Source: Rhodobacterales bacterium (GTDB lineage: Bacteria; Pseudomonadota; Alphaproteobacteria; Rhodobacterales; Rhodobacteraceae). From it: 64,000 nucleotides of DNA. Position numbers and translations under genes: made by a program. Within the stretch, counting starts at the first letter, position 1. Each line of letters begins with the position of its first letter. A model generated the notes under the pieces. That model was given only the letters and a program-made list of their open reading frames with translations, did not search any database and was not told the DNA's origin. Of the stretch, positions 14,624 through 51,525 are shown piece after piece. The stretch covers positions 1 to 64,000 of the forward strand of contig PDRW01000037.1 in assembly GCA_002746935.1 (NCBI GenBank), written 5' to 3'.

Positions 14624-15793
14624 TCAGCCGGCCGTGGGGGCGAAACCGTAACGCGCCAGAACCGCGCTCATGCCGGCCCGGAAGGCCGCCTCGTTGAAGC
14701 CTTCGGCATGGGCGGTGAGCCGGGCGGGGTCGAGCCGGTTGAGCCCCTCGGCCTCGAAAGTCTCCACCGCCTCCACCATCGCCGCCACCGATTGCTCATG
14801 GAACAACAGCCCGGTCTCACGGTCGATCACCGTATCCAGCGCGCCGCCGCGCCCATAGGCGATCACCGGCACCCCGGAGGCCATCGCCTCCACCGGCACG
14901 ATGCCGAAATCCTCCTCGCCCGGGAAGATCAGCGCCTTCGCCCGCGCCAGCTCGCGTTTCATCTCCGCAAACGGCAGCTTGCCGAGGAAGGTCACGTTGC
15001 CCTTGGCGCCGGCGGCGAGTTTCTTCGCCGCCTTGTCCGGGCCACCGATGATGTGAAACGGTTTGCCGAGCCGGTTGAAGGCCTCGATCGCGAGGTCGGG
15101 CCGCTTGTAGGGCGCAAGCTCTCCGAGCCAGAGGTAGTAATCGCCGCGCTCCTCCGGCGCGACGGGGGCGAAATCCTCGACGAAGACCGGCGGGTGCACC
15201 ACTTCCGCGTCACGGCGCCAGTATTTCTCGACCCGCGCCGCCACATGAGCGGAATTGGCGACGAAAGCATCGACCCGCGCGGCGGAGGTCACGTCCCAGC
15301 CGCGCAGACGATGCGCGAGGCGGGGCAGCATCGCCTTTGTCAGCAGCCCGGCGGAACCGCGGTAGACATGGTATTGATCCCACAGATAGCGCATCGGCGA
15401 GTGGCAATAGCAGATATGGGGGGCGTCGGGCGGGGCAATCACCCCCTTGGCGGGGCCGGATTCGCTCGACAGCACCAGATCGTAGCCGGTGAGGTCGAGC
15501 TCCTCGAGGGCGCGCGGCATCAGCGGCAGGTATTTCTGATAAAGCTTCGTGGCCATGGGCAGCCGCCCCACCGAGGTGGTGATGACCCGTCTGGAACGGA
15601 TCAGATCGCTCACCGCCGAGGGGTCATAGGCATGGGTGAAAATGTCGGCCTGCGGAAACATCCGCAGCAGCGCTTCCAGCACCTTTTCGCCGCCGCGCAT
15701 CCCCACCAGCCAGTAGTGGATGATGGCGACCCGGGGGGCGTGGGGCCGGGGCGGAGGAGAAGGATGGGATTGGGCCCGCGCCACAGTGTTCAT
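14624..15793 (-). CDS. Glycosyltransferase family 4
   Basis: GT-B fold retaining glycosyltransferase, 389 residues, expected to add a sugar to the EPS repeat unit at the cytoplasmic membrane. Signs are the N-terminal IHYWLVGMRGGEKVLEALL, with the glycine-rich loop preceding the acceptor domain, the mid-region YYLWLGELAPYKRPDLAIEA, and the EX7E-type donor site in EEDFGIVPVEAMASGVPVIA. The subgroup resembles WbaZ-type mannosyl- or fucosyltransferases. The ATG at 15793 is 16 bases after the Wzc-type gene stop and has AGAGGA upstream. Longer in-frame starts would overlap that gene and have the wrong composition. Donor and acceptor are unknown. Confidence 0.88.
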   Translation of the reverse strand: MNTVARAQSHPSPPPRPHAPRVAIIHYWLVGMRGGEKVLEALLRMFPQADIFTHAYDPSAVSDLIRSRRVITTSVGRLPMATKLYQKYLPLMPRALEELDLTGYDLVLSSESGPAKGVIAPPDAPHICYCHSPMRYLWDQYHVYRGSAGLLTKAMLPRLAHRLRGWDVTSAARVDAFVANSAHVAARVEKYWRRDAEVVHPPVFVEDFAPVAPEERGDYYLWLGELAPYKRPDLAIEAFNRLGKPFHIIGGPDKAAKKLAAGAKGNVTFLGKLPFAEMKRELARAKALIFPGEEDFGIVPVEAMASGVPVIAYGRGGALDTVIDRETGLLFHEQSVAAMVEAVETFEAEGLNRLDPARLTAHAEGFNEAAFRAGMSAVLARYGFAPTAG

Positions 15794-15809
15794 CGGGTTC
15801 GGTCCTCTT

Positions 15810-17936: not shown

Positions 17937-18308
17937 TCAGTCTCCTCTGTGGCCCGCGAGGCGCTCGCGGGCTCAGGTTTCAAGGTGCGCCTGGGTCGGG
18001 CGGTGAAAACGGGACGGACGGCCACCGACGGGGGCCGCGGGCCTTGCCGCGCCGCAGTCTGACCCGCCGATCCGGCTGAACAAGGGCGGGCTCATGCACT
18101 TTATCCGGCCTTCTGCAAGATACCCCACCTTGCCCGCGGCACTCCGGTTGCCTGTTTCCACACCCAAACTCATACCCGTTTCCCGCCCCAAAGGGGCCGG
18201 TTTCGGACCTGCTGTCAATCATTTATGACAGGCCGTGCCAATCCCGGGCGATCCGGGAAACAATGCCGCATGGCCCGATTCTACTGGCTTTCCGGTGGCA
18301 ACATTGTG
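17937..18308. promoter_or_regulatory. Leader region upstream of the Wzc-type gene
   Basis: About 370 bases with no supported gene, between the Wzy-like stop and the Wzc-type start. It holds a GC hairpin (TCCCGG/CCGGGA, 18242-18258), possibly ending the Wzy-like transcript, an inverted repeat GTGTCA-N6-TGACAC (18306-18323) overlapping the Wzy-like stop codon, and the palindrome at 18212-18231 listed separately. Confidence 0.45.
18212..18231. promoter_or_regulatory. CTGTCA-N8-TGACAG palindrome
   Basis: Perfect 6-base arms with an AT-rich spacer, in otherwise GC-rich DNA about 280 bases upstream of the Wzc-type start. On the minus strand it begins CTGTCATAAAT, which matches one half of a PhoB box, but no second half follows at an 11-base step. 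A TTGACA word within it could serve as a -35 element. Probable regulator site; the protein is unknown. Confidence 0.4.
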
Positions 18309-19733
18309 TCAGGATCGTGACACCCCCGGGCGTGGCCGGTGGGCGAGCGATTCCATCACGCCCGCGCGCGACAGCCCGGTGGCGGCGCCTGCGAGCGCGA
18401 AGACGAACAGTCCGAGATCGGGGGTGGAATGGGTCAGCACCGCCGAAGACAGCATCGCCAGCACTCCCGCCTTGGCGCCGCGGATACTGGCGGCGCGTTC
18501 GCTGCTTGCGCGGCCCGCCTCGCCCGCAGGCGCCAGCAGGAAGGCGGTCAGAAAGGCGATGAAGAGCAAGGTGCCGGGCAGGCCGATGGAGCCCAGGCAG
18601 GAGATCACCCAGTTCGAGGCCCGCACCGAGCCCAGGCCTGCGCCGAGCCACCAGGTGTCGGTGAAATTGGTGAGTGCCTGGGTGTTCCAGCTCATCCGCT
18701 CGACGCCGGAATCGCTCTCCATCTTGTCGAACAGGATGTCGTCGAAAAAGGCGGTGACGGGTTCGGCCATCTGGTAGCCGGCGGTCACGCCAGCCGCCGC
18801 GACCCACAGCAGAAGCGCTCCCGTCACCGCAACCGCCACCGACCGGCGCTCCGCCTCCGGGCGCAGGAAGCGGAAGAAGTTGAACAGCGCGAAGCCGAAG
18901 AGGAAGACGATCAGCGCCAGATAGGCCGAAGACGAGGTCGAGCGCAGCACCGCCACGCTGGCCATGGCGAGCATCCAGGGCGCGGCGCGGGAGCGGGGGC
19001 GGATCAGCCAGTATTGCAGCCAGAAGCCGAACAGGCCGAGCGAGAAGAAGCCGAAGCTCGACGCCTCCGGGAAGCCGCCGATCATCCGCTTGAAACCGGC
19101 CATCGTGTCGGTCACGCGGATGGTGTAGTTGGCGGTGCGGATGAAGTCGAGCAGCTGATCGGCACCGGCGGCGAAGGTGATCACGTCGATCCAGCCCATG
19201 GCGAAATGCACCGAGGTGGCAACGATCATCGCCACCACCAGCGAGCGCGCTTGCGGGGTGCGGCGGAAGGCGGTGGCGAAGCCGATGAAGGTGAGATAGC
19301 CCAGTATCAGCCGGAACAGCTGGGTGATGTTGCCCGACGATGGCCCGAGGGGGCTCTTCACGATCAGGGCGTGGCTTTCGTCGCGGGCGATGGAAAACAC
19401 CTCCGTGAGCCCGGCGAAGACCCGCGGCGCGAAGATCGCCGAAAAGGCCGAAACCAGGATCACCAGCGTCAGGAAGAACCCGGGCTGCCAGGGCCGCATC
19501 GTGCCGAACATGCTGGAGCCGGCCCCCGGGGTCAGCAGGATCAGCACCACCATGGCAAGGGCGGCGAGGTCGGCGGTGATGATCGAGGCGCCGCCAAGCG
19601 CGGGCAGGTTGAAGGCTGCCGCCGCGCCGAAGGGCAGGAGCGCGAAGAACACCCAGGCGCCCCGGCGCGGGCCGAGGGCCAGAAGCAGCAGGATCGCGGC
19701 AATCGCGATCGGGGTGGAGGCGACGAATTGCAA
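18309..19733 (-). CDS. Wzy/O-antigen-ligase-like membrane protein (polysaccharide polymerase)
   Basis: 474-residue polytopic inner-membrane protein with about 10-12 hydrophobic helices and one larger periplasmic loop (about residues 290-370) between late helices. The loop and flanks carry GFPEASSFGFFSLG and WWLGAGLGSVRASNW, resembling the conserved Wzy/WaaL loop with its GxGxGS motif. It probably polymerises repeat units of the EPS, since the same strand carries Wzc, GT4 and Wzx genes. The start is TTG 19733 with AAAGGG a few bases upstream; no alternative start fits as well. It is divergent from the secreted glycosidase gene across 131 bases, which probably hold both promoters. Confidence 0.8.
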   Translation of the reverse strand: MQFVASTPIAIAAILLLLALGPRRGAWVFFALLPFGAAAAFNLPALGGASIITADLAALAMVVLILLTPGAGSSMFGTMRPWQPGFFLTLVILVSAFSAIFAPRVFAGLTEVFSIARDESHALIVKSPLGPSSGNITQLFRLILGYLTFIGFATAFRRTPQARSLVVAMIVATSVHFAMGWIDVITFAAGADQLLDFIRTANYTIRVTDTMAGFKRMIGGFPEASSFGFFSLGLFGFWLQYWLIRPRSRAAPWMLAMASVAVLRSTSSSAYLALIVFLFGFALFNFFRFLRPEAERRSVAVAVTGALLLWVAAAGVTAGYQMAEPVTAFFDDILFDKMESDSGVERMSWNTQALTNFTDTWWLGAGLGSVRASNWVISCLGSIGLPGTLLFIAFLTAFLLAPAGEAGRASSERAASIRGAKAGVLAMLSSAVLTHSTPDLGLFVFALAGAATGLSRAGVMESLAHRPRPGVSRS

Positions 19734-38251: not shown

Positions 38252-41200
38252 TTGACGCAACCCAGACCTGCCAGCACCGCGCCGGGTGGCATTGCCATTG
38301 TCGGCATGGCGGTGACCCTGCCCGGCAGCCCGGGGCCCGATGCTTTCGGGGCGGTTCTGGCCAGCGGTGGCGGGCAGCCGTTCCGGCCCGGGTCCGCCGC
38401 GCCTGGCGCCTCTGGCGGCAACCGCTTGCCGGGGAAGGCCGCAAGTGGTCTTGCCGCCGCCCGGCCGCCCGGGGAAGGCGACGGGGTCGATGCCGGGCTA
38501 TTCGGCCTTTCTCCGGCGGCGGCGGCGCTCGCGCCGCAGCACCGGGTGTTTCTCGAAACCGTCTGGGAGGCGATGGACAACGCGGGCCACCGCGCGGAGG
38601 ATGTCGCGGGGCGGATCGGGGTATTCGCCGGCGCCGGAGCAGACGGTTTCTTCAGGCAGGATCCGCCATTCAGCCCCGCTCCCGACGAGGATCCGGGCCC
38701 GGCCCGGCCGAGCGCACAGGGCGGCGGCGATTTCCTGTCAGCCCGGGTGAGCCGCGTGCTTGGTCTCAGCGGCCCTTCGCTCACCCTCCTGGCCGATTGC
38801 GCCACGGCGCTGGCGGGGGTGCATCTGGCGGCACAAGCGCTCAGGGACGGCGATTGCGACATGGCGCTTGCGGGAGCGGTGTCTGCCGGGCTGCCCGGCG
38901 GGCATGGGCGGGCCGTTGATGAGAGCGAAGGGGGCGGGGCGCCGGGTTTCGCGGCGGGCGTGGTGGTGCTGCGCCGGCTGGAAGATGCGCTCGCACAGGG
39001 CGACCACATCCAAGCCGTGATCAGGGGCAGCGGTCTCGGCACCGACGGGGCCGCGCCCGGTGGGGCCGGTCAGGCGGCGGCGGTGGGCTTGGCGCTCGAT
39101 GCGGCCGGGGTGGCGCTCGGCAGCATCGGCTATGTCGAATGCCACGGCAGCGCCCCTCCGCAGGGTGATCGGGCGGAGGTAACCGGGCTTGCCCGCGCCT
39201 GGCGCGCCCGCGGGGTGGAGGCGCAGGGCTGTGCCATGGGGCCGGTGCAGAGCGGAGCCGGTGCGGCGGCTTCGGCACTGGGGCTCATCAGGGCGGCGCT
39301 GGCGCTTGAGAGCGGCCAGATCCCGGCAGGCCCCGGCCATGAGGCAGCGGAGCCGGAAAGCGGGGATGCCGCCAGCGCGTCCGATGCCAGCCAGGGGGTG
39401 CGGCCCTGGCCCGAAGGCGCGGGGCCGCGTCGTGCCTTGGTCCATGTTCTGGATGCTGACGGCACCACTGCGCAGGTGGTGCTGGAACAGGCCCCGGCGC
39501 AGGCGCAGCCGGAACCGGGGGTGTTTGCGTTCCAGCCGGTCGTGCTCTCGGCCCGGACCGATGCCGCGCTCGACGCGATGTCGGCGCGGCTGGCGGCGCA
39601 TCTTCGGGCCCATCCCGGGCAGCCGCTGGCCGATGTGGCCTTCACCCTGATGGAGGGACGCAAACGCTTCGGCCGGTCCCGGGTGCTGGTGGCCGGAAGC
39701 CATGCCGAAGCCGCGGATCTGCTGGAAGCGGGCGCGGCGGCGGAGGAGAGCTTGCGGGTCTTCACCCAGTCGCGGCTCGCCGCGCCGGAGCTTTGGTTCC
39801 TGTTTCCCGGCGCCCCCGAAGCCGGTCCCGGCACCGGGCGGGCGCTCTACGATACCGAGCCGGTGTTTCACGACCGGTTTGCCCGAGGGCTCGCGGTGCT
39901 GGACGCGGTCTCGGGCGCGGGCGCGGGCACGGGGGCGGGCGCGCTTTTCTGGGCCGATGCGCCCGGCAAGGAGGCGGCGGCCCTTCTGGCGCGGCCGTCG
40001 CTGCGGGTGCCGCTGGGGGTCATTCTGGGCGTGGCGCTGGGAGATCTGGCGATGTCCTGGGGGCTTGCGCCTGCGGTGCTGGCCGGTGAGGGTGCGGGCG
40101 AGATCGGCGCGGCCGTGGTGGCCGGGGTGATGGGGTTCGATGACGCGGTGCGCCTTGCGCATCTTCTGGGGCGGCTGGCCGAAGCCGCGCCCGGCGAGCG
40201 CGCCGGAAGGCGCCGGGAGCTGCGCGCCTTTGCCGCCGGCATGGCCCTGTCGCCGCCGCGGATCGCGCTGGTATCGGCACGGACCGGCGCGCGGCTGACG
40301 CCTGTTCAGGCGCAGTGCATGGAGACATGGGTGAGCGTGGGAACCGGTGCGGAGGACAGCGTGGAGGACGGCGCGGAGGACGGTGCGGGGGCCAGCGCAG
40401 AGCCCGATGCGGGGGCCAGCGCGGAGGACGGCGCGGGCGATGACGGCAGCGAGCCCGGTGCGTTGCCCGCTGCCCTTGCCGCCCGGCCGGAGGGCGTGGC
40501 GCTCACCCTCGGCTGGGACAGGGGCCTTGCGGATCGTCTGGCCGCGACCCCGGGGCTGCGGGCCGAACGCCGGCTCGACGCTCTCGGACCCGCGCAGGCA
40601 GAGGTGCCCGGCGATCTTCATTTCACCACCCAGCTGGCGCGTGCCTGGGGGCTCGGGTTCGCGGTGGACTGGGCGCAGTTCCGCGCAGGCGCAAGGCGGC
40701 GCCGGGTACCGCTGCCGGGCTATGTGTTCCAGCGCGGGCGCCGTCCGGCCGGGACCGGGCCGCGGCCGGAGGACCCCGCCCGCGCGCCGGAGCCGGACGA
40801 CCGGGGCGGAGACCGGGCCGACACCCGGGGCGACACTCGGGCCGATACCCGGGGCGACGGCTGGGGCTGGCGCGCGGCCTGGATGCCGAGCTATGCCGCC
40901 TGTGAACAGGATCTGTCGCGCGGTCTCGATGATGTGCCGCGCCAGAGCTGGCTGTTTTTCGAAGACGGCGAGGGCATTGCCCGCGCGGTTTCGGAGCGGC
41001 TCGAAACGGCGGGGCATGAGGTGGTGCGGGTCTTCCCCGGCGGGGGGTTTGCCCGCCTTGACGAGCGCCGCTTCACGCTGATGCCCGAACAGGGCCGCGC
41101 GGGCTATGACGCGTTGTTCGGGGCGCTCGGCGAGGCCGGGCTGTTGCCGGACCGGATCGCGCATTTCTGGGGGGCCACCCGGCAGGCGCGGCCCCGCCCG

Positions 41201-44200
41201 GGGTCGGACGCCTTCAACACCCGTCTGGACGAGGGTTTCTTCAGCCTGACCTGGCTGGCGCAGGCGCTTGGGGCGCTCGGTCTGCCCGGCCCGCGTCCGA
41301 TAACCGCTGTGACCCGCGGCGCGGTCGCGCTCGACGGCGAAGGGCTGGCCTGTCCCGAGACGGCGCCGCTCGTCGCCGCTGCCGGTGTGATCGCGCGGGA
41401 ACTGCCCGGGGTGAGCTGTGCGGTGCTCGATCTGGACCCGCAGGCGCCGGAGCATACCCGCAAGGGCCTGCTGCGCGGGCTTGCGGCCCGGCCCGGCGAC
41501 GAGGCGCTCACTCTCCGCCTGCTGGAAGAACTGCTGGCCGAACCCTCGAACGGGGTGGCGGCGCTGCGCGGTGCGCGGCGCTATCTGCGCCAATGGCGCA
41601 GGCAGCCGCTGCCTGCCGCTGGCTCCGCCGAAACCGATGCCGCAACCGACACCGTCGCCGCGCCGGTCTTCCGCGAGGGGGGCAGTTATCTGATCACCGG
41701 CGGCCTCGGCGGCCCCGGTCTCGACATCGCCAGCGGGCTGGTGGGCGAGGCGCGGGCGCGGGTGGTGCTGGCCGACCGGCTGGCGCTGCCGCCGCGCGCA
41801 AGCTGGGCGGAGGTGCTGCGCCGCAGCCCGCCGGACGACCGCATCGCAAGAGCGATCCGTGGGGTTGAGGCGCTGGAAGCCCAGGGTGGCGAGATCACGA
41901 TCGCCTGTGCCGATGTGACCGACCTCGCGGCGATGCGACAGGTGGTGGACAATATGACCGAAAGCCATGGCCGGATCGACGGTGTGGTCCACGCCGCCGG
42001 GCTGTGTGACGCCACCCCCCTCATGGCGCAGGATGCGCAGACGATCGGGCGGGTGCTCGCCCCCAGGATTGACGGGCTGCGGGTGCTCGACGCGCTGTTG
42101 CCTGACGGGACGACCGGGCTCATGGTGCTGTTCTCCTCCGTGGCCCCGGCGCTCTGCGGGCCGGGCGAGCTGGCCCTGAGCGCCGCCGATGCCTGGCTCG
42201 ACGCCTTTGCCGCCAGCCGCCGGGGCGGCAAGACCCGGGTGGTCTCCATCGGCTGGGGGCCCCGGGCGGAGACCGGCATGTTCGCCCCGGCGCCCGCTCC
42301 GGCGGACCCGGGCCATGCCCCACAGACCCCGGTTGATACCCCGGTTGCGGCCCCGCTGCTGGACAGTGCCGGGTTCGATGCCGATGGAATGCGCAGCTAC
42401 CGCACCCGCTGGGAGGCGGACCGGGCCTGGGTGCTCGACCAGCACCGCGAGGGCGGTGTGGGGCTGATGCCGCTTTCGGGCGTGGCCGAACTGGCGGCAG
42501 AGGCTTTTGTGGCCGAAGGCGGCGCGCTGCCCTTCGAGATCACCGGGCTCACCCTCGACCACCCGTTCCGCGCGCCCCGGGGCCGGGTGGCGCAGTCTTC
42601 CGTCCGGATGCGCCGCAGCGGCGGGGGCTGGCGCTTCGGTCTGCACAGCCCGCCCCGGGGGGCGCAGGCGCGGCTGACCCATGTGCCCCATGCGCAGGGC
42701 AAGATCCGTCACCTCGATGCGCCGCCGCCGGGGCGGGTGCATCTCGAGGCGGTCGCCCTGCGGGCCGATCACGACACCGCCAGGGCGGCCCCGGCGGGGG
42801 GGCATCTTTCTCTGCCGCAGGAGCTTCACCTTTCGCTCGGACCGGCATGGCGGGCCTTGCGCGAATCGGTGCTTGGCACCGGCGAAGGGCTGGCGCGGCT
42901 GGTGCTTCCGCAGGCGGCTGCGGCAACGCTTGCGCCGGGGATGCTGCTGCATCCCGGCCTGTTCGACCTCGCGGCAGGCTGGGCCATGGAGCTTGCGCCG
43001 GATCGGGCCGCCGACACCCCCTGGCTGGCGGCAGGGTGCGATGCCATCCGGGTGTTTCACCCGCTGCCGGGCGACCTGGCCTGCTGGGTGCGTCGCCCCG
43101 AAGGTGCGCCCGCGACCGGCAGCGCCCGGTTCGACATGTCGCTCTGCGATCTCGACGGCCGGGTGCTGGTGGAGGTCGAAGGGCTCGAAATGCGGCCCCT
43201 GATACCGGCGGAGGAAGCCGCAGCCCCCGCTGAGGCCCCTGCGGAGGCTGCCGTGGACGAAGCTGCGGAGGCCGCCGCGCCGCCGCAGGCGCCGTTCAGC
43301 AGACTGGCCGCTATGCCCCCGCTCCGCAGCGCCACCCGGGCCCGGCTGGCCGGGGGCGCCGGTCAGGGCATCCGCCCGGGCGAAAGCTTCGGGGCGCTCA
43401 CCCGGGCGCTGGCGCTGGAGCGGGCCCATGTCTGCCTCACCGCGACCGGTCTCGACGCGCTTGTCGCCGGGGTGGAAGAGGCAGAGCCGCAGGCCCCCGC
43501 GGGCCTACCGGCGCCGGGTGGCGATGCTGCCGCGAAGCGCGCCGCGTTCCGCCATCTGGTGCCGCTCGCCCGCTCCTCCCGGCCGGGGGCGACGCCGGTC
43601 TTTCTGGTCGCAGAGCCCTCCGGCCCGGTGCAGAACCTGCGCCATCTGGCGCTGATCCTTGGCGAGGACAGGCCGGTCCATGGGGTGCAGGCCACCGGTC
43701 GCCCGGGCGGCGGTTGTTACGGCAGCGTCGCCGAGGCCGCCGCCGCCTGCCTTGCCGAAATCCGGCAGGTGCAGCCCGAAGGGCCCTATGTGCTGGGCGG
43801 GTTCTCCGGCGGCGGGATCGTCGCGCTGGAGATCGCCCGGGCGCTGGAGGCCGCGGGCGATGCGGCCGCGCTGGTGCTGCTGCTCGACAGCGCCGCCGGG
43901 CAGGGCCCGGTGCCCGGCCGCCTCGACCGGGCGCGGATCTTGCCCGCCGGTCCCCGCCGCAAGGGGCCGCGCGCTGTGGCCGGGCGGCGGAGTGGCCGCA
44001 AGCAGGCCGCCGCCGAAGGTGCCCGCCATGCCAGCGCGGCCGAAGCGGCCTTCCACGACGCGCTGGCCGCCTGGGAGCCGGTGCCATACCGCGCGGCCAC
44101 CGTGCTGCTGCGCCCGGCCCCCGGCCGGCGCGACGGGCCGGGCGGCGGGCGCTCTGCCACCGTGCAGAAACGTCTTCCGGGCGAAGACAACGGCTGGCGC

Positions 44201-44446
44201 GACTATCTGCCAAAGCTCGAAATTGCCGAAATGCCGGGCGACCACGGCACCATGGTGCTGCCGCCCAATGTCGGCACTGTCGGCGGTTATCTTCGCGCCC
44301 GCATTGACGCGGCGCTTGAACACCCGGACAAGCCCTTTCGGCGGAACGGCCATGCGCAACCGGACGAGCGGCCCGAGGCGCGGCCCGAAGCGCGGCCCGA
44401 AGCGCGGCCTGACGAACAACCGGACGAGCAACCGGGCAAGGAGTGA
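38252..44446 (+). CDS. PKS-like multidomain protein with degenerate KS, AT and KR, intact DH and TE, no carrier
   Basis: 2064 residues, laid out like a type I polyketide synthase. KS about 10-420: active-site C183 and first His H298 (ECHGS) are kept, but the KSNIGH motif reads GPVQSG, so the second His (G335) and the Lys are lost. AT-like about 430-740: GHSxGE is GEGAGE (G614 for Ser), and much of the second half is replaced by an acidic low-complexity stretch. KR-like about 870-1370: cofactor motif TGGLGG at 1149 is kept, but the catalytic Tyr is L1309 and the Lys is Arg. DH about 1385-1650: H1398 in HxxxGxxxxP and D1572 are present. No carrier motif is seen. TE about 1780-2040: S1852 (GFSGG) and H1998 are present. 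TTG 38252 fits the KS start but has a weak ribosome site. The stop overlaps the next GTG. It cannot act as a normal PKS; role unknown. Confidence 0.85.
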   Translation: MTQPRPASTAPGGIAIVGMAVTLPGSPGPDAFGAVLASGGGQPFRPGSAAPGASGGNRLPGKAASGLAAARPPGEGDGVDAGLFGLSPAAAALAPQHRVFLETVWEAMDNAGHRAEDVAGRIGVFAGAGADGFFRQDPPFSPAPDEDPGPARPSAQGGGDFLSARVSRVLGLSGPSLTLLADCATALAGVHLAAQALRDGDCDMALAGAVSAGLPGGHGRAVDESEGGGAPGFAAGVVVLRRLEDALAQGDHIQAVIRGSGLGTDGAAPGGAGQAAAVGLALDAAGVALGSIGYVECHGSAPPQGDRAEVTGLARAWRARGVEAQGCAMGPVQSGAGAAASALGLIRAALALESGQIPAGPGHEAAEPESGDAASASDASQGVRPWPEGAGPRRALVHVLDADGTTAQVVLEQAPAQAQPEPGVFAFQPVVLSARTDAALDAMSARLAAHLRAHPGQPLADVAFTLMEGRKRFGRSRVLVAGSHAEAADLLEAGAAAEESLRVFTQSRLAAPELWFLFPGAPEAGPGTGRALYDTEPVFHDRFARGLAVLDAVSGAGAGTGAGALFWADAPGKEAAALLARPSLRVPLGVILGVALGDLAMSWGLAPAVLAGEGAGEIGAAVVAGVMGFDDAVRLAHLLGRLAEAAPGERAGRRRELRAFAAGMALSPPRIALVSARTGARLTPVQAQCMETWVSVGTGAEDSVEDGAEDGAGASAEPDAGASAEDGAGDDGSEPGALPAALAARPEGVALTLGWDRGLADRLAATPGLRAERRLDALGPAQAEVPGDLHFTTQLARAWGLGFAVDWAQFRAGARRRRVPLPGYVFQRGRRPAGTGPRPEDPARAPEPDDRGGDRADTRGDTRADTRGDGWGWRAAWMPSYAACEQDLSRGLDDVPRQSWLFFEDGEGIARAVSERLETAGHEVVRVFPGGGFARLDERRFTLMPEQGRAGYDALFGALGEAGLLPDRIAHFWGATRQARPRPGSDAFNTRLDEGFFSLTWLAQALGALGLPGPRPITAVTRGAVALDGEGLACPETAPLVAAAGVIARELPGVSCAVLDLDPQAPEHTRKGLLRGLAARPGDEALTLRLLEELLAEPSNGVAALRGARRYLRQWRRQPLPAAGSAETDAATDTVAAPVFREGGSYLITGGLGGPGLDIASGLVGEARARVVLADRLALPPRASWAEVLRRSPPDDRIARAIRGVEALEAQGGEITIACADVTDLAAMRQVVDNMTESHGRIDGVVHAAGLCDATPLMAQDAQTIGRVLAPRIDGLRVLDALLPDGTTGLMVLFSSVAPALCGPGELALSAADAWLDAFAASRRGGKTRVVSIGWGPRAETGMFAPAPAPADPGHAPQTPVDTPVAAPLLDSAGFDADGMRSYRTRWEADRAWVLDQHREGGVGLMPLSGVAELAAEAFVAEGGALPFEITGLTLDHPFRAPRGRVAQSSVRMRRSGGGWRFGLHSPPRGAQARLTHVPHAQGKIRHLDAPPPGRVHLEAVALRADHDTARAAPAGGHLSLPQELHLSLGPAWRALRESVLGTGEGLARLVLPQAAAATLAPGMLLHPGLFDLAAGWAMELAPDRAADTPWLAAGCDAIRVFHPLPGDLACWVRRPEGAPATGSARFDMSLCDLDGRVLVEVEGLEMRPLIPAEEAAAPAEAPAEAAVDEAAEAAAPPQAPFSRLAAMPPLRSATRARLAGGAGQGIRPGESFGALTRALALERAHVCLTATGLDALVAGVEEAEPQAPAGLPAPGGDAAAKRAAFRHLVPLARSSRPGATPVFLVAEPSGPVQNLRHLALILGEDRPVHGVQATGRPGGGCYGSVAEAAAACLAEIRQVQPEGPYVLGGFSGGGIVALEIARALEAAGDAAALVLLLDSAAGQGPVPGRLDRARILPAGPRRKGPRAVAGRRSGRKQAAAEGARHASAAEAAFHDALAAWEPVPYRAATVLLRPAPGRRDGPGGGRSATVQKRLPGEDNGWRDYLPKLEIAEMPGDHGTMVLPPNVGTVGGYLRARIDAALEHPDKPFRRNGHAQPDERPEARPEARPEARPDEQPDEQPGKE

Positions 44447-45453
44447 ATACAGTGAACAACCCTTCGATCCTGACGGTGATCCTGAATTTCCGCACCGCGG
44501 AGCTGGCGGTGAAGGCGGCCCTTGGCGCGGCGCGCGAGATGGAAGGGCTCGATGGCGAGATCGTCATCGTCGACAACGAGTCACAGGACGGTTCCTGGGA
44601 GCAGTTTCAGGCCGTCGCGGCGGAACGGGGCTGGGCCGAAGAAGGCCGCATCCGGGTGCAGCGCACCGGGCACAACGGCGGCTTCGGTTCGGGCAACAAC
44701 CATGCGATCCGCGCGGGCCTCTCCGGCGGGCGCAAGCCGGATTACGTTTACCTGATGAACCCCGACGCGGTGCCCGAGGCGGGCGCGATCCGTGCGCTGG
44801 CCGGCTTCATGGAGGCGCATCCCAGGGCGGGCGCGGCCGGCAGCCTGATCCTGACCCCTGACGGCACCCCCGCCTATGGCGCGTTCCGCTTTCCCTCGAT
44901 CCTGCGCGAATTCGAAGATGCCGCCCGCACCAACGTGCTCTCGCGGCTCCTTGACCGCGGCCGCGAGCCGTCGCCGGTTGCGCTGGAGCGGCGCGAGGTG
45001 GACTGGGTGTCGGGCAGTTCGGTGATGTTCCGCCAGGCCACGCTCGACGCGGTCGGGCTGTTCGATGAGAGCTTCTTTCTCTATTTCGAAGAGACCGATC
45101 TGTGCCTGCGCATCAAGCGCGCCGGCTGGGAGATCTGGTCGGTGCCCGAAAGCAGGGTCACCCATATCGGCGGCGTGGCGACCGGCATGGGCCGCTGGGA
45201 CCGGGTGCCGCAATACTGGTTCGACTCGCGGTTTCACTATTTCCGCAAGAATTACGGTCTGCCCTACACGCTGGCCGTCACCGCCTCGCTGCTGGCGGGC
45301 GAGGTGGTCTGGTCGCTGCGCAAATTGCTGAACCCGAAGGCCGAGCGCTACCGCAACACCAGGCGGTTTGGCCGCGATCTGCTCCGCCACCACCTGGCCG
45401 CGCTGTTTTCCCGTCCGCCGGATCCGCCAGCACCGATCGAACCGCCAAGCTGA
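44443..45453 (+). CDS. Glycosyltransferase family 2, WbbL/rhamnosyltransferase-like
   Basis: 336-residue GT-A enzyme resembling WbbL/RfbF rhamnosyltransferases: ILTVILNFRTAELA, VDNESQDGS, NGGFGSGNNHAIRAGL, VYLMNPDAVPEAGAI, VDWVSGSSVMFRQATLDAVG and the ED site in FFLYFEETDLCLRIKRAGW. Such enzymes use dTDP-L-rhamnose, which rmlABCD in this locus would supply. The C terminus is basic and amphipathic. GTG 44443 forms a GTGA overlap with the PKS-like stop, with GGCAAGGAG upstream, so it is translationally coupled. The NRPS-like gene begins 22 bases after its stop. Its place between the two assembly-line-like genes ties them to EPS synthesis. Confidence 0.9.
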   Translation: MNTVNNPSILTVILNFRTAELAVKAALGAAREMEGLDGEIVIVDNESQDGSWEQFQAVAAERGWAEEGRIRVQRTGHNGGFGSGNNHAIRAGLSGGRKPDYVYLMNPDAVPEAGAIRALAGFMEAHPRAGAAGSLILTPDGTPAYGAFRFPSILREFEDAARTNVLSRLLDRGREPSPVALERREVDWVSGSSVMFRQATLDAVGLFDESFFLYFEETDLCLRIKRAGWEIWSVPESRVTHIGGVATGMGRWDRVPQYWFDSRFHYFRKNYGLPYTLAVTASLLAGEVVWSLRKLLNPKAERYRNTRRFGRDLLRHHLAALFSRPPDPPAPIEPPS

Positions 45454-45475
45454 GCCCGAGCCCGGAGACGTTTCC

Positions 45476-48400
45476 ATGACCCCGATCAGCTTCCTGATCA
45501 CCGGTGACGACGATTTCACCATCGGCTGCGGCGATGCGCTGCGGGCGCGCGGGCATGTCATTGCGGGTGTCGCCAGCCGGAGCGGGGCGGTGCGGGCCTG
45601 GGCCGGGGCGGCGGGGCTTCCGGTGGCCGACAGGATCGGGGCCCTGGAGGCGGGCGGCGAGGCGGAGTGGCTGCTGCTGGCCTCCGGCCCGCCGGTGCCC
45701 CCGGTGCCCGCGGTGCCGCCGGAGGCTGCGCGGGCTGCGGTGCGCCGCGGCACGCTGCGGTTTCACGACGGCCCGCAGCCGGATTGCGGCGCTGCGGCTC
45801 CGCCCGCCGGGGCGCTTCTCGCCGGCGCCACGAGACATGGGGTTGTCTGGCATATCCCGGGCGGGCCGGTGCTGGTGCAGCAATCCGTCGCCATCGGCCC
45901 GGAGGAGACCGCCGCTTCGCTGATCGGAAAATGCCGCGCTGCCGGGCTCGAAAGCTTCGATGCGCTGCTTTGCAAGCTGGCGGCGGGAGATCTGAATGCC
46001 GCCACGCAAGATATTGATTGCCAATATAAAAGCAAACCGGAGATTGTGCCGCAAGCGGCCGGGCGGCTTGACTTCACCTGGCCCGCGCCGGAGCTGGCGC
46101 GCCGGGTGCGGGGGCTGGATTTCGGCGGCCTCTGGAATCCGCTGACCACCGCCAAGGTCAGGGCCGGCGGGCGGCTGTTGCTGGTGAGCGGTGCGCATGT
46201 GGTCGAGACCGTCGCCCCGGTGGCACCGGGCACGGTGCTGCATGTGACACAGGAAAGCCTGACCGTCGCCTCCAGCGACGGCGCGGTGCGGCTTTGCGGG
46301 TTTCGCGACACCAGTGGCCAGCAGGTCGCGCTGTATCCTGCCGCGCTGGAGGGGGCCGAACTGGCCTCGCCCGGCGAGGCGGAGGCAAAGGCCCTGAGCG
46401 CGGAGCGCGCCGCGCTTGCCCGGGACGAGCCCCATTGGCGGGCGCGGCTGGCGCGCTTCCGGCCCGCGCGGCTGGCGCTGGCGGGGCCGGGGCCCGGCGG
46501 GGGGGCAGGCGGTGGGCCGGGCGCGGGCCTTGCCTCCTGGAACGACCGCCAGCTTGCGCTGCCCAAAACCTTTGCTGCCCCGGAGGCTGCCCCGGAACTC
46601 GTCGCCGCGCTCACCGCCTGGGGGTTGCACAGCACCGGCGACTGGCGGGCGGGGCTCGCCTGGTCGACTGCGCCGATGGTAGCGGGGGCAAAGGCCCATC
46701 CGGGCCATGTCAGCCCCTGGGTTCCGCTGGGCTTCGGGCTCGAGGCGCCCGAAGAAGCCACCATCGCGGCGCTCGCCGCCGATCTCGCCCCGGATCTCGC
46801 GGCGGCGGCGCGGGGCAGTTTCGCCCCCGATCTCGTTGCCCGCGACCCGGAGATCACCGCCTTCGGCATGGCGTCGGTCGGTATCAGCGACCGTGCCCCG
46901 GTGGCGGGCACCGCGCTCACCCTCACGCCGGAGGGCGACCGGCTCAGGCTCTGGTACGATGCGCAAAGGCTCGACGAAGCCGCCTTGGACCTGCTCGAAG
47001 CCCGGCTTGCGCTGTTTCTCGACAATCTCGCCGCGAACCCGGCGCTGCCGCTGCGCGCGCTGCTGGCGCTGCCTGCCGCCGAACGCGCCCTGACGCTGGT
47101 GGCGTGGAACGGCCCGCAGCCCGCGGACCCTCCGGTGCCGGTCCACCAGGCGTTCGAGGCGCAGGCGGACCGCGCGCCGGAACGGGTGGCGCTGGTGTCG
47201 GGCGGGCGGCAGATGAGCTATGGCGCGCTCGATGCCCGGGCCAACCGGCTCGCGCACCGGCTGATCGCCGAAGGCGCCCGGCCGGGCGACCGGGTCGGTA
47301 TGTATCTGACCCGCTCCTTCGATCTGGCGGTGGCGGCGCTGGCGGTTCTCAAGGCGGGCGCGGCCTGGCTGCCGCTCGATCCGGCCTGGCCGGCGGGGCG
47401 TCTGCGGCAGCACATCAGCGATGCGGGCGCCGGGCTGGTGGTGACCGACCTCGTGCTTGCCCCGATCCTGCCGCCCTCGGCAGCGGTGCCGGTGATGATC
47501 GGCGGCGGGGCGGATGCGCGCCGTCCCGGGCTGGATGTTGCCGGGGAGGCGGTCGCCTTGGTGACCCGGGCCGCCGATGCGAGCGGTGGCGTGCCGGGGC
47601 CGGTCATGCTCACCCATCGCGCTCTGTCGGCCTTCTGCGCCGGGATCGGCGCGCTGGCTGACCCCGTTGCCACATGCTTCGACGCCACATGCCCCGGCAC
47701 AACATGGGCCTGGCTGGCGGGCCCCGGCTCCTGTGCCTCGGCGCTGGAGATGTTCTGTGCCCTGACCCGTGGGGGCCAGGTGGTGGTTGTCAGTGAAGAC
47801 GCCCGGCTGGCCCTGTCCGGCGCGCAAGGCGCCTCGCTTGCGGACGACCTCACCCGCCACCGGGTCACGGTGCTGCATGGCTCCCCCGCGATGCTGCAAA
47901 GGATCCTCGACGACCCGGGCGCGCGGGCGGCACTTCGGGGGCTGAAACAGATCCTGCTCGGCGGCGAGCCGGTGAGCGCTGCGCTTGCCGGGGAGCTTCG
48001 CCGCTTTACCGATGCCCGGATCGTCCGGCTGTTCCGGCCTTGTGGCAGCGCGCTTTACACCATGGCGCATGTGATCGAAGGCGGCGAAAGCGGCGCGGGG
48101 CCGCTGGGCCGGCCGCTCGCGGGGCAGAGCGTCTATGTGCTCGACAAGGCGATGCAGCCGGTGCCGGTCGGGGTGGCGGGCGATCTCTGGATCGGCGGGC
48201 CGGGGGTGCCGGGGCGCCATGGGGACGACGATGGCCGCATCCGGCGCGATCCATTTGCCGCTGGACCCGGCCACGCCGGCGAACAGGCGCAGATGTTCTG
48301 CACCGGCGAGCGGGTGCGCTGGCGGGCCGACGGGCTGCTCGAACGCCTCGGTCCCCGCCGGCGCCGCCTCACGATCTGCGGCGAGACGCTGGCACCTGGC

Positions 48401-49012
48401 GAGATCGAAGCCCGGATCGCCCGCGCCGGTGGGGGCTCCCGGGCGGCGGTGGCGGTGAAAGGCGAGCGGCCCCGGCTCGTCGCCTGGGTCGAGGCGGTGG
48501 GGGCGGCCGGCCTTGCCACGATCCGCGCCGATCTGGTGGCGCATCTGCCCGCGCCGATGCTGCCTGCGCAAGTCATCGCTCTGGAAGCGCTGCCGCGCGG
48601 TGAAACCGGCGGGATCGACCGCGCCGCGCTGCCGGAGCCCGGCGCGGAGCTGCGCATCGGGGGCCCGGGCGACGCGCCGCTCCCTGCCGCCGGGCTGGAA
48701 GCGGAGATCGCGGCGATCTGGTCCGGGGTGCTCGGGGTCAGCGATATTCGTCGTGCTGACAGTTTCTTCGCGCTGGGTGGCGATTTGTGTGGGGCGGCGG
48801 CGGTGCTTGCGCGGATCCGGGCGCTCGACGGGCTCGCGGGGACCGCGCCGCACGCGCTTTTCCGCTTTCCGCTGCTGGGCGATCTGGCCGGCCATCTGGC
48901 GCAGCAGCGCCTGCCCCCGGCGGATCGGGCGGGTGTCCCGGAGTTCGACCGCCAGGCGATCATGGCGCGCCGCCGCGACATGCGCCGCCGGTCCGAACGG
49001 GTGGCGCCATGA
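45476..49012 (+). CDS. NRPS-like protein: formyltransferase-, condensation-, adenylation- and carrier-like domains, all degenerate
   Basis: 1178 residues. An N-terminal formyltransferase-like domain (about 1-280) keeps H97 (RFHDGP), but the Asn two residues earlier is R95, and the GDI segment with the catalytic Asp is gone (HIPGGPVLVQ). Residues 290-530 resemble only the end of a condensation domain and its linker, with no HHxxxDG. The adenylation-like domain (about 545-1050) aligns well, but A3 reads RAADASGGVPGP with no Lys, YGPTE reads FRPCGSA, the A7 Asp is Glu, and the A10 Lys is G1046. The carrier ends in FFALGGDLCGA: the phosphopantetheine Ser is L1104 (TTG, one base from the Ser codon TCG). 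The frame has no stop. Its ATGA overlap with the next gene shows coupling. No adenylation or loading is expected; role unknown. Confidence 0.84.
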   Translation: MTPISFLITGDDDFTIGCGDALRARGHVIAGVASRSGAVRAWAGAAGLPVADRIGALEAGGEAEWLLLASGPPVPPVPAVPPEAARAAVRRGTLRFHDGPQPDCGAAAPPAGALLAGATRHGVVWHIPGGPVLVQQSVAIGPEETAASLIGKCRAAGLESFDALLCKLAAGDLNAATQDIDCQYKSKPEIVPQAAGRLDFTWPAPELARRVRGLDFGGLWNPLTTAKVRAGGRLLLVSGAHVVETVAPVAPGTVLHVTQESLTVASSDGAVRLCGFRDTSGQQVALYPAALEGAELASPGEAEAKALSAERAALARDEPHWRARLARFRPARLALAGPGPGGGAGGGPGAGLASWNDRQLALPKTFAAPEAAPELVAALTAWGLHSTGDWRAGLAWSTAPMVAGAKAHPGHVSPWVPLGFGLEAPEEATIAALAADLAPDLAAAARGSFAPDLVARDPEITAFGMASVGISDRAPVAGTALTLTPEGDRLRLWYDAQRLDEAALDLLEARLALFLDNLAANPALPLRALLALPAAERALTLVAWNGPQPADPPVPVHQAFEAQADRAPERVALVSGGRQMSYGALDARANRLAHRLIAEGARPGDRVGMYLTRSFDLAVAALAVLKAGAAWLPLDPAWPAGRLRQHISDAGAGLVVTDLVLAPILPPSAAVPVMIGGGADARRPGLDVAGEAVALVTRAADASGGVPGPVMLTHRALSAFCAGIGALADPVATCFDATCPGTTWAWLAGPGSCASALEMFCALTRGGQVVVVSEDARLALSGAQGASLADDLTRHRVTVLHGSPAMLQRILDDPGARAALRGLKQILLGGEPVSAALAGELRRFTDARIVRLFRPCGSALYTMAHVIEGGESGAGPLGRPLAGQSVYVLDKAMQPVPVGVAGDLWIGGPGVPGRHGDDDGRIRRDPFAAGPGHAGEQAQMFCTGERVRWRADGLLERLGPRRRRLTICGETLAPGEIEARIARAGGGSRAAVAVKGERPRLVAWVEAVGAAGLATIRADLVAHLPAPMLPAQVIALEALPRGETGGIDRAALPEPGAELRIGGPGDAPLPAAGLEAEIAAIWSGVLGVSDIRRADSFFALGGDLCGAAAVLARIRALDGLAGTAPHALFRFPLLGDLAGHLAQQRLPPADRAGVPEFDRQAIMARRRDMRRRSERVAP

Positions 49013-49713
49013 TGTCCGGCAGCCCGCATCACCGCGCCGAAGCGGTCTTCGAGGCGCTTGCCGGTGGCCCTTCGGGGCCGGTGGCGGCGGCGGTCACCGA
49101 TCCGCGCATTGCCTACCCCGGGGCCTTTCCGGCCGAGCTTGAAGAGATGCCGCGCGCGGAGGAGCGGCGGCGGCGCGAATATGTCGCGGGCCGGGTCGCC
49201 GCCCATCGGGCGATGGAGAAGCTCGGGCTGTCCGCCCGTCCGGTGCTCACCAACCGCGCGCGTGCCCCCGCCTGGCCACGCGGACTGGTCGGCAGTATCA
49301 GCCACAATGCCTCCACCTGTGTCGCCCTGGTGGCGCGTGCGAGCCAGGTGAGAAGCCTCGGCGTTGATGTCGGGGATGATGCCCCGCTTGCGCCGGAGCT
49401 GACCGGCGCCAGCTGTACGCTCGAAGAACGCGCCTGGCTCGCGACCCGGCCGGACGCAATGCGCGGGCAGTTCGCCAGGCTGATCTTCTGTGCCAAGAAA
49501 GCGGTGTGCAAATGCCAGTATCCGCTCAGCCGCAAGGCGATGGATTTCGCGGCGCTGCTGGTTACGCCCGACACCGATACCGGCCAGTTCGAAGCCACCT
49601 TCCTTGCCGACAGCGGGCCGTTTTGCGCCGGTTCCCGGCTCAACGGCCGCTTCGCCCTTGCGGGCGGGCTGGTCCATGCGGCAGTGGTGTTGCTGCCGGG
49701 CGCGGCACCGTGA
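49009..49713 (+). CDS. Sfp/EntD-type phosphopantetheinyl transferase homologue lacking key Glu residues
   Basis: 234 residues with a clear PPTase layout: RRREYVAGRVAAHRAM (P0-like), WPRGLVGSISHN, LGVDVGDDAPL, and LIFCAKKAVCKCQYPLS. Family members carry DxE for Mg2+ and a KE-x3-K motif. Here D120 is kept, but the second acid is G122, and the Glu of FSAKEAxYK is K164, with Tyr replaced by C167. Both changes remove metal or catalytic ligands, so normal transfer of phosphopantetheine is unlikely. ATG 49009 overlaps the NRPS-like stop by four bases (ATGA); ATG 49012 is possible. The only carrier that looks competent nearby, in the 8.7-kb gene, would need another PPTase. Confidence 0.85.
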   Translation: MMSGSPHHRAEAVFEALAGGPSGPVAAAVTDPRIAYPGAFPAELEEMPRAEERRRREYVAGRVAAHRAMEKLGLSARPVLTNRARAPAWPRGLVGSISHNASTCVALVARASQVRSLGVDVGDDAPLAPELTGASCTLEERAWLATRPDAMRGQFARLIFCAKKAVCKCQYPLSRKAMDFAALLVTPDTDTGQFEATFLADSGPFCAGSRLNGRFALAGGLVHAAVVLLPGAAP

Positions 49714-49815: not shown

Positions 49816-51525
49816 ATGAAACATCTGTTCAAAACCGTTTTCGCCGCGCTGCTGTTGGCAGGGCTGCCCGCGCCCGTCCGCGCCGGGAGCGGCGGCGGCG
49901 GTGTCGGCATCAACCTCGCCTCACCGGTCGACTGGTCGACCGCCCAGCCCTTCCTTGACCTCATGAAAACCTCCCGCCCCTGGATCGGCCATGGGGCGGA
50001 CGAATGGGAGGTGATGAACTGGGAGGAGATGGCAGCACAGGGCGTGTTTGACGATCATGGCTGGCCGAAGGTCATCCCCCCGGGCGTCAGCTCTGTCGGT
50101 ACGCTGATGCTGACCGATCTGCCGGAGGATACGGCCGGCGTGGCCGGGCGCTATCTGTTGCGCTGGGAGGGCTCCGGCGAAGTGGAGGTCGGCCTGGGGG
50201 CGCAGAATGTGGATTACGGCGCCCACAGCGCGCGTTTCGACTTCGCCCCCGGCAACGGCCCGGTGCATGTGGTGATCCGCACCACCGACCCGGAGGGCAC
50301 GGGCGACCATGTGCGCAACATGACGCTTGTGCGCGAAGACCGTGTGGCGCTCCATGCCGAAGGCGCGGTGTTCAACCCCGACTGGCTGGCGCTGATCGAC
50401 GGGTTCGAAGTGCTGCGTTTCATGGACTGGATGGAAACCAACGATTCCACCCTTGCCCATTGGGAAGACCGCCCCGAGCCCGGCGATGTGAGCTACCGGC
50501 TCAACGGCGTTCCGGTGGAGATCATGGTCCGCCTCGCCAATGAGCTGGGCGCCGAGCCCTGGTTCACCATGCCCCATCTCGCCGACGACGATTTCGTCCG
50601 CCGTTTTGCCGAAACGGTGCGCGACGGGCTGGACCCGGATCTGCGCGCCTGGGTCGAGTTTTCCAACGAGGTGTGGAACTGGATCTTCGATCAGGCCCAT
50701 TGGGCCGATGCGGTGGCGAAAAGGACCTGGCGGCGCGATCCGCGCTGGATACAGATCTATGCGGGCCGGGCTTCGGAGGTGGCGGATATCTGGGCGGAGG
50801 TCTTCGGCGCCGGGGCCGACGCCCGGCTGATGCGGGTGATCGCCACCCAGACCGGCTGGATGGGGCTGGAACAGGAGATCCTGAACGCCGGAAGATGGGT
50901 GAGCAAGGGCAAGGGGCGCAGCGCACCGGGGCTGCATTTCGACGCCTATGCGGTGACCGGCTATTTTGGCGGCCATCTGGCGCAGGGTGACCGGGTGGGC
51001 CCGCTGCGGGTGTGGATCGCGGAATCTCGGGCCGCCGCGGAAGCGGAGGCCGACCGTCAGGGCCTCACCGGCGCGGCGCGGGCGGATTACATCGAGGCGC
51101 ACAGGTTCGACGCCGCCGTCGCCCGCGCTGCCGCGCATCTCGCCGGGGCCGACGGCCCGGCGAAGGGTGTGCACGACCTGCCCCACCTCGTCGACACCCT
51201 GTTTCCCTACCATGCGAACATCGCCAGGGAATGGGATCTGGAGCTTGTGGCCTATGAGGGTGGCAGCCATGTGGTCGGCGGTGGCGAAGCGCGGGACGAC
51301 GACGCGCTGACCGAATTCCTGGTGCATTTCAACTATTCGCCGGAAATGGCGGAGCTTTACCGGCAGATGTTCGAGGGCTGGAAGGCGGCCGGGGGCGGTG
51401 TATTTGCGGCCTATTCCGATGTGGCCAGGCCCGGCCGCTACGGAAGCTGGGGCCATCTGCGCCACCTTGGCGACAGCAATCCGCGCTGGGATGCGCTGGT
51501 GGCGGCGCGCGACGGGCGGCGGTAG
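49816..51525 (+). CDS. Secreted clan-A glycoside-hydrolase-like protein
   Basis: 569 residues with a signal peptide (KHLFKTVFAALLLAGLPAPV, cleavage near VRAGS). The region after about residue 180 looks like a TIM-barrel hydrolase: VEFSNEVWNWIFDQA has the Asn-Glu pair of clan A (E285 as acid/base), and LVAYEGGSHVVGG gives a nucleophile candidate E481. Residues 100-180 form a beta-rich insert or accessory domain. I do not recognise the family with confidence. It begins about 100 bases after the PPTase-like gene on the same strand and may trim EPS like the PslG-like enzyme at 19.9 kb. A long C run lies shortly after its stop. Confidence 0.65.
   Translation: MKHLFKTVFAALLLAGLPAPVRAGSGGGGVGINLASPVDWSTAQPFLDLMKTSRPWIGHGADEWEVMNWEEMAAQGVFDDHGWPKVIPPGVSSVGTLMLTDLPEDTAGVAGRYLLRWEGSGEVEVGLGAQNVDYGAHSARFDFAPGNGPVHVVIRTTDPEGTGDHVRNMTLVREDRVALHAEGAVFNPDWLALIDGFEVLRFMDWMETNDSTLAHWEDRPEPGDVSYRLNGVPVEIMVRLANELGAEPWFTMPHLADDDFVRRFAETVRDGLDPDLRAWVEFSNEVWNWIFDQAHWADAVAKRTWRRDPRWIQIYAGRASEVADIWAEVFGAGADARLMRVIATQTGWMGLEQEILNAGRWVSKGKGRSAPGLHFDAYAVTGYFGGHLAQGDRVGPLRVWIAESRAAAEAEADRQGLTGAARADYIEAHRFDAAVARAAAHLAGADGPAKGVHDLPHLVDTLFPYHANIAREWDLELVAYEGGSHVVGGGEARDDDALTEFLVHFNYSPEMAELYRQMFEGWKAAGGGVFAAYSDVARPGRYGSWGHLRHLGDSNPRWDALVAARDGRR

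Follow-up and report, generated by a model that had tools for sequence, protein, structure and literature searches.

The stretch of DNA analysed here, 64,000 nucleotides long and referred to throughout as the window, comes from a draft genome of a Rhodobacterales bacterium (G000; 84% complete, 94 contigs; contig C77) and carries an operon of four genes that encode, in order, a type I polyketide synthase (PKS), a GT2 glycosyltransferase, a nonribosomal peptide synthetase (NRPS) and a phosphopantetheinyl transferase (PPTase). The best reading of the sequences compared is that assembly-line chemistry has been lost repeatedly in this operon family, with selection apparently continuing on the reading frames and on part of the protein fold. 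The view of the first-pass annotation, formed from the window, that the frames are held by selection with catalysis-defining residues gone is borne out, and the pattern recurs in two other copies.

The four open frames, whose coordinates were verified and which contain no N, all lie on the plus strand: a degenerate type I PKS of 2064 aa (38252..44446), the GT2 glycosyltransferase (44443..45453), a degenerate NRPS of 1178 aa (45476..49012) and a pseudo-PPTase (49009..49713). PKS and GT2 overlap by GTGA (44443-44446), GT2 and NRPS are separated by 22 bases, and NRPS and PPTase overlap by ATGA (49009-49012), as had been annotated at first sight. The window copy, with four genes in the family order on one strand and tightly joined, is a regular member of the operon family; ketosynthase (KS), ketoreductase (KR), dehydratase (DH), thioesterase (TE), AMP-binding, formyltransferase-C and PPTase domains score above the Pfam cut-off, and the acyltransferase (AT) and the NRPS carrier below it.

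Full-length relatives of the NRPS, found with its N-terminal half as query, occur across many genera of Rhodobacteraceae, where tblastn returns the gene order PKS, GT2, NRPS, PPTase, and a PPTase profile matches 102 of 394 family genomes at E <= 1e-30. From these 102 genomes G000, 16 others and 80 more were taken (G170, G207, G237, G264 and G414 were left out), and 105 loci were surveyed, with L061-L064 outside the survey. At 86 of the 105 loci the complete set of four occurs on a single strand, in the same order and spanning no more than 16 kb; at the remaining 19 a recognised piece is absent or the span exceeds 16 kb, several being cut by contig ends. The GT2 is found in three of seven genomes of the window's genus, and a scan of named genomes gives four loci, two of which are the G005 and G003 copies. 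An intact PKS has the layout KS-AT-psiKR-KR-DH-ACP-TE, where ACP is the acyl carrier protein domain, and an intact NRPS consists of a formyltransferase (FT), a halfC, an adenylation (A) domain, a carrier (T) domain and a basic tail, with a luciferase-like monooxygenase (LLM; TIGR04020) inserted into the A domain, as shown in the intact member G011; psiKR and halfC are names coined in this analysis.

Catalytic residues, listed from textbook motifs, take their family-mode state in 89 of 95 PKS rows, 93 of 103 NRPS rows and 95 of 100 PPTase rows, after short rows were dropped by length; the 98 PKS proteins give 95 alignment rows, one of them being the second half of the PKS of genome G143. Two of the six deviating PKS rows are truncated or split open reading frames (G005C8, G015), and the other four are G000, G003 and both halves of G143; truncated or split frames among all deviants are those of G015, G028, G034, G160, G212 and G323 and the G005C8 PKS. 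The PPTases of G056, G231, G232 and G349 have DxA or DxD instead of DxE beside family-like PKS and NRPS rows of their own, and the G005C8 NRPS shows a change of the FT His in the large alignment, its motif being intact in a smaller one. At L044 (G015, 6473-18514) the PKS lies in three and the NRPS in two open frames, by frameshift decay or sequencing error, and L148 (G153, 8667-16544, minus strand) has an unusually long PKS frame of 7.9 kb with a third-position GC content of 0.95, in which catalytic residues are intact and psiKR and LLM conservation is reduced. Family invariants were taken from 88 PKS, 92 NRPS, 90 PPTase and 89 GT2 rows, a reference set that omits G000, G003, G005C8, both halves of G143, G015, G028, G034, G160, G212, G323 and G153.

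Against these invariants the window PKS is unevenly preserved. The KS, AT and KR had each been described as having lost required residues, which holds for the AT Ser and His, the KR Tyr and Asn and the second KS His, whereas the KS Cys, the first KS His and the KR Ser are kept. The KS remnant (38291..39328) retains 94 of 180 aligned invariants together with its Cys (38789-38812) and first His (39137-39160), the region of the second His (39239-39268) being lost; the AT remnant (39794..40264; 50 of 86 invariants) has GEGAGE in place of GHSMGE (40085-40102) and an in-frame deletion of the active-site His stretch (near 40169-40216), beyond which a 12/24-bp repeat has expanded in frame (40346..40459). 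The KS-AT linker (15 of 17 invariants) and the psiKR region (40859..41680; 29 of 35) are kept better than either domain. In the KR remnant (41681..42268; 30 of 39) Tyr has become Leu and Asn has become Asp (42158-42193). The first reading of the DH and TE motifs as intact stands: the DH (42353..43213; 21 of 27) keeps its catalytic His (42437-42457) and Asp (42950-42973), and the TE (43640..44341; 52 of 67) its triad of Ser (43796-43816), Asp (43877-43894) and His (44231-44254). The absence of a PKS carrier, also noted at the outset, reflects an in-frame deletion of the whole ACP (site at 43493..43537); near its end the protein has a repeat tail (44360..44431), and the C-terminal AAE of the family is absent. 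By its catalytic residues the PKS retains DH and TE, part of KS, and neither AT, KR nor ACP.

The window NRPS departs from the family in its FT, A and T residues and in the LLM insertion. Within the FT catalytic region (45755..45877) Asn and Asp are lost and His is kept; the A3 motif is lost (47564..47602), A5 (48032-48052), A7 (48299-48322) and A10 (48596-48622) are changed, and residues of A3, A5, A7, A8 and A10 are missing relative to the family. The LLM is cut out in frame at a junction at 47804..47851, and the carrier motif GGHSL reads GGDLC (48770..48793), without the phosphopantetheine Ser; the basic C-terminal tail M-x-[RK]-R-R-x-M-R persists (48962..48985). Invariants kept are 24 of 37 in FT, 3 of 4 in halfC, 29 of 50 and 35 of 65 in the two parts of A, and 11 of 21 in T. 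The original description of all NRPS domains as disabled is therefore right for A, T and two of the three FT residues but not for the condensation domain: HHxxxD[GAS] is absent from the first 560 residues in 98 of 99 NRPS rows longer than 1100 aa, and the half-size C domain without HHxxxDG is, judged from these alignments, ancestral and not a strain-specific loss. Overlooked in that description were the family's PKS ACP and the LLM inside the A domain, both cut out in the window. In the PPTase both key Glu are gone, as had been noticed: DxE has become DxG (49360-49380; Glu in 86 of 90 reference rows) and KE has become KK (49489-49512; Glu in 90 of 90), leaving a protein that lacks the Sfp-type DxE/KE residues and retains 13 of 15 invariants, the two lost being the KE Glu and one Phe, now Tyr. 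The GT2 is conserved, with 54 of 56 invariants.

A neutral simulation matched to the observed loss of invariants predicts 11.3 stops in the window copy, and none is seen (Poisson 1e-5). About 40 indel events in the PKS and 20 in the NRPS, counts that depend on the alignment, are all in frame, set against intact-row medians of 6 and 7 and maxima of 39 and 28; if a third of neutral indels keep the frame, the excess of 47 has a probability of the order of 1e-23. The periods of 16 of the 17 tandem-repeat rows in the window PKS and NRPS are divisible by three. Matches of ten intact relatives to other plus-strand frames are weak (best E 9.5e-5), and none falls at the corresponding place. The early claim that neither stop nor frameshift interrupts the operon is upheld, and in this the copy differs from an ordinary pseudogene. 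The null models used here and below have an equilibrium GC of 0.84-0.85 or 0.70 (also 0.75 for hydrophobic columns) and start from named relatives.

Two other copies have lost their chemistry: that of G003, from the same genus and, like G000, an incomplete draft, and that of G143, from another genus. In G003, in-frame losses have removed A, LLM and T entirely and KS and KR for the most part; the TE Ser, TE His and DH His are gone too, and there is no stop where 5.4 are expected. In G143 the KS, AT, FT and T residues are gone and there is no LLM, and it keeps 117 of 118 invariants in A, 26 of 27 in ACP, 59 of 69 in TE and 15 of 15 in the PPTase; 13.6 stops are expected and one is seen, in frame within the KR. 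This stop splits the PKS at L142 (2494-13512, minus strand), where the downstream DH-ACP-TE half keeps its TE triad, and the remnant is perhaps a reduced A+ACP+TE loading system. All three dead copies keep 53-54 of 56 GT2 invariants.

In a tree of GT2 and PPTase (90 rows), G000 pairs with G005C8 (SH-aLRT 99), G003 lies outside the pair (100), and G143 stands far off beside the intact-residue copy G375 (98). Because the sister copy G005C8 keeps the FT, A, T, ACP, TE and PPTase sites, the losses in these domains in G000 and G003 are independent on this tree; the independence covers those domains and not KS, AT or KR, since the G005C8 PKS runs off its contig. The same sister copy speaks against the lineage-wide decay that had been offered as an alternative at first. 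It is itself mildly relaxed (TE 62 of 69, ACP 23 of 27, DH 18 of 22) and has a 36-N scaffold gap at the expected place of the LLM, which is likely absent. The same genome holds a second PKS-GT2-NRPS copy with intact residues (L037, G005:C167), in whose stretch no PPTase was found.

Selection also appears to have acted on residues. The invariants of the G000 PKS are retained more unevenly among domains than in all 200 neutral runs, retention being lowest in KS (z -4.2) and highest in linker, psiKR and TE (z +2.0 to +2.4). In G143 the N-terminal part of the PKS likewise exceeds all 200 runs, AT and KS having decayed and linker and psiKR persisted as in G000, and so does the G143 NRPS, with A kept and FT and T lost; the corresponding fractions of runs are 0.015 for the G003 PKS, 0.54 for the G003 NRPS and 0.08 for the C-terminal PKS part of G143. 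Over four starting sequences, hydrophobic columns exceed a frame-only null in G000 (z 2.1-2.8), G003 (1.8-3.1) and the N-terminal PKS and NRPS of G143 (3.0-3.9). A preferential hit on active sites, proposed at first for this strain and considered here as the main signal in the window, is rejected: G000 keeps 9 of 20 aligned catalytic residues against a neutral 11.7 +- 2.1 (0.147), a test that leaves out residues at deleted places (second KS His, ACP Ser). Loss is no faster than the null in G003 (3 of 10 kept; 0.213) or the C-terminal part of G143 (4 of 5; 0.76), and the rest of G143, where 1 of 12 is kept (0.007), is the only part in which catalytic residues appear targeted.

A further trace of constraint lies at the protein ends. 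In 91 of 103 NRPS rows the pattern M-[SA]-[RK]-R-R-[AE]-M-R stands within the final 45 residues, and none of about 3168 body windows contains it; a looser form is present in 96 rows, 13-19 residues before the end and with varied synonymous codons. PKS proteins end in AAE in 87 of 98 cases, again with varied codons and with all three stops used, and both tails (MxRRRxMR and AAE) are conserved at the protein level behind variable linkers across the family (for example at L039 and L040). The NRPS tail survives in G000, G003 and G143, in G003 despite the loss of A, LLM and T; the neutral chance of keeping its six key residues is about 0.06-0.12 in G000, 0.21 in G003 and 0.04 in G143, which together give moderate sequence evidence for retention under constraint. 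The PKS end reads AAE in G003 and AAQ in G143.

Several observations weigh against continued selection on these proteins as anything other than open frames. The NRPS domains of G000 decay evenly (0.765 of 200 runs are as uneven), as expected if its frame alone mattered, and its PKS has lost the AAE tail, which now reads GKE. Hydrophobic columns of the window TE fall below neutral (0.72 against 0.84), and those of the C-terminal PKS part of G143 do not rise above it (z 0.7-1.3). GC content at first and second codon positions has drifted by 6.2 and 7.3 standard deviations in the window PKS and by 4.7 and 4.6 in the NRPS, in a comparison whose reference set omits only G000, G003, G143 and G005C8; there is no such drift in the window GT2 or PPTase, and values elsewhere are 2.5 to 4.3 in G003 and 2.4 to 3.2 in the intact G153. 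Tandem-repeat density in the window PKS is the highest of the PKS set (57 per kb, median 3.2), the NRPS with 35.9 per kb not being the highest of its own; composition drift and repeat density together imply that residue-level selection is strongly relaxed in both. Fitted alone, the T and PPTase segments do not reject omega (dN/dS) = 1 (twice the log-likelihood difference, 2dlnL, 2.0 and 0.9), and the second half of A, with omega 0.37, rejects it weakly (6.1). Finally, no single intact catalytic activity is common to the three dead copies.

We tentatively propose, at somewhat less than even confidence, that the dead PKS and NRPS are kept for a non-biosynthetic role, as a platform that works with the GT2 in exopolysaccharide (EPS) assembly. 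On this view the locus derives by reductive evolution from an orphan PKS-GT2-NRPS-PPTase operon found widely in Rhodobacteraceae and often next to EPS genes, the EPS link being suggested by gene neighbourhood. Because the carrier Ser, the AT, FT and A sites and both PPTase Glu are gone, the window assembly line would no longer make its ancestral polyketide or peptide product. The two large proteins are still selected for full translation, and are presumably made; within the PKS, the KS-AT linker, psiKR and TE, which are non-catalytic or C-terminal, are kept better than KS and AT. They would serve the conserved GT2, their presumed partner, as a protein platform that retains a DH/TE half; the basic NRPS tail may be one of its contacts, and translational coupling of the operon would help to hold the frames. 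The fuller version, in which a complete assembly line was converted on at least two occasions, and perhaps on three, to a non-catalytic platform serving a single EPS glycosyltransferase, docking tails and linkers being kept and catalytic domains (KS/AT and the LLM, and even A and T) switched off or cut out in frame, is doubtful as a whole.

The strongest rival of the platform is coupling alone, a relic in which the PKS and NRPS frames are kept solely for termination-reinitiation of GT2 and PPTase, upstream stops being polar on GT2. Junctions of -20 to 30 bases are family-wide (85 of 91, 89 of 94 and 87 of 93 operons whose respective junction lies between -60 and 300), and the even decay of the window NRPS, the composition drift and the in-frame repeats all fit frames kept for coupling only. 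Against it stand the uneven constraint of the window PKS and of the N-terminal part of the G143 PKS, the excess of hydrophobic columns over neutral in three copies, an NRPS tail retained although synonymous codons vary in the family, and the almost complete A domain of G143; the stop in the G143 PKS did not remove its DH-ACP-TE half, and the coupled window PPTase has itself lost both Glu. On balance coupling alone seems unlikely, though a serious contender.

Next comes ordinary pseudogenisation caught early, in which selection ended recently and stops are yet to come. The first-pass annotation had tied recent pseudogenisation to close relatives with intact sites and a dN/dS near 1; G005C8, which keeps the sites that can be read, partly supplies the former, but dN/dS is about 0.2. 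In a codon model with shared dS, omega on the G000 branch is 0.067 for GT2, 0.086 for PPTase, 0.20 for FT, 0.11 for halfC, 0.22 and 0.19 for the two parts of A, 0.17 for T, 0.13 for DH and 0.19 for TE, against a background of 0.07-0.21 and 0.07-0.23 for G005C8; for FT, A and TE the value of about 0.2 is two to three times background. Tested against 1 on this branch, FT, A, T, DH and TE give 2dlnL of 119 to 249, values that are optimistic since branch lengths were fixed in the tests and the fit ended early. The shared-dS fit was made on nine segments because single-segment fits give saturated dS (up to 33) for KS, KS-AT linker, AT, DH, halfC and the N-terminal part of A; it was stopped after six rounds with the log-likelihood still rising by 0.4 a round, and KS, AT, psiKR and KR stand outside it as the G005C8 PKS is cut by a contig end. 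With a dS of 1.45 on the G000 branch, neutral evolution may have set in late, after a period of constraint, and an omega of about 0.2 could be the average of a long constrained and a brief neutral phase; the loss of catalytic residues at no more than the neutral pace, the stop in G143 and the broken frames of G015 agree with this. Yet a neutral phase long enough for the observed loss predicts about 11 stops and many frameshifts in the window, and none is seen; the shortfall of stops in G003 and G143 points the same way, and early pseudogenisation is improbable.

A reduced but still active enzyme could also account for the selection seen: its DH-TE half would work in trans, with acyl-CoA or a different carrier, the rest of the chain being baggage. 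The DH dyad and TE triad are intact, DH omega equals background, and TE and psiKR retention is above the PKS average; TE omega, however, is 2.4 times background, its hydrophobic columns lie below neutral, and G003 has lost TE Ser, TE His and DH His, which leaves this explanation with little probability. A candidate carrier would be the intact A-T-TE protein at 8535-11234 of the window (plus strand; AMP-binding, PP-binding and thioesterase domains, carrier motif GGDSI), which has a 71% relative in G005, with one TGA within the match, and no relative at 1e-60 in the other ten genomes of that search. An assembly or binning artefact is very improbable, for although the source is a draft in many contigs, the window holds no N, the frames of the operon are intact, its many in-frame changes are unlike errors, and the genes flanking it on both sides recur around the G003 operon, the downstream one also at G005C8.

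The surroundings of the operon are EPS-type by Pfam, with nucleotide-sugar enzymes, GT2, WecG, GT4, a polysaccharide flippase and a priming sugar transferase, and a GNVR/AAA_31 protein that we read as Wzc-like. Adjoining it at 49816-51525 (plus strand) is a conserved protein of 569 aa without a Pfam or NCBIfam match at 0.001, present in the stretch around 39 of the 86 complete operons; 50 of these 86 have this gene, WecG or a second GT2 in the stretch examined. A hidden intact second copy was considered as the cause of decay and is disfavoured, TIGR04020 not being found in G000, G003 or G143; of these, G000 is 84% and G003 74% complete, and a copy may have been missed in these two. Besides the operon PPTase, G000 has two further ACPS-family matches and G003, G005 and G143 one each; one of the two in G000 lies on contig 94 near other NRPS/PKS matches, and three of these four genomes are incomplete. 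The extra match may be a second Sfp-type enzyme, with which G000, alone of the four, could do without the operon PPTase.

Assembly-line synthases are expensive to make, and in natural-product annotation an open megasynthase frame is taken as a sign of a product. The locus offers a case open to testing in which, in separate lineages, both the frame and part of the fold would have outlasted the chemistry, next to a single conserved glycosyltransferase. Such a case could tell whether megasynthases may take on structural roles, and it points to a class of cluster calls that would wrongly predict a product. The C-terminal tails of NRPS and PKS offer a way into the question of how these proteins might contact their partners.

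Among known systems, NRPSs with a TIGR04020 MupA/Atu3671 monooxygenase resemble the intact family, whose member G011 has this domain inside A, and differ from the window, from which it is absent. NRPS relatives so annotated lie on plasmids of Parasedimentitalea marina (NZ_CP033222.1) and Ruegeria conchae (NZ_CP081104.1), and because of this location the operon may be mobile. An orphan hybrid NRPS-like/T1PKS cluster of Roseibaca domitiana (BMJDCPAI_00765 and _00767), described as the most frequent novel cluster and present in 18 of 37 species, consists of a 4,527-nt NRPS gene and a 6,333-nt T1PKS gene about 1 kb apart (PMC10584327); the spacer has the size of the GT2 and, from layout and size alone, this cluster appears to be the same operon, of which the dead copies are a variation. 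That report describes predicted clusters, and the available part of its text mentions no dead copies and does not contain the words glycosyl and exopolysaccharide (PMC10584327). No account of dead copies or of an EPS role was found in the literature searched. The pseudoenzyme cases known to us are single proteins. As in pseudoenzymes generally, to go by the available parts of two accounts (PMC10211241, PMC5106787), enzyme folds are kept in the window without catalytic residues; here, by contrast, the proteins concerned are multidomain synthases, and with them an entire operon. Together with the similar losses in two relatives, this is a hint that a pair of large enzymes may persist after its chemistry is gone.

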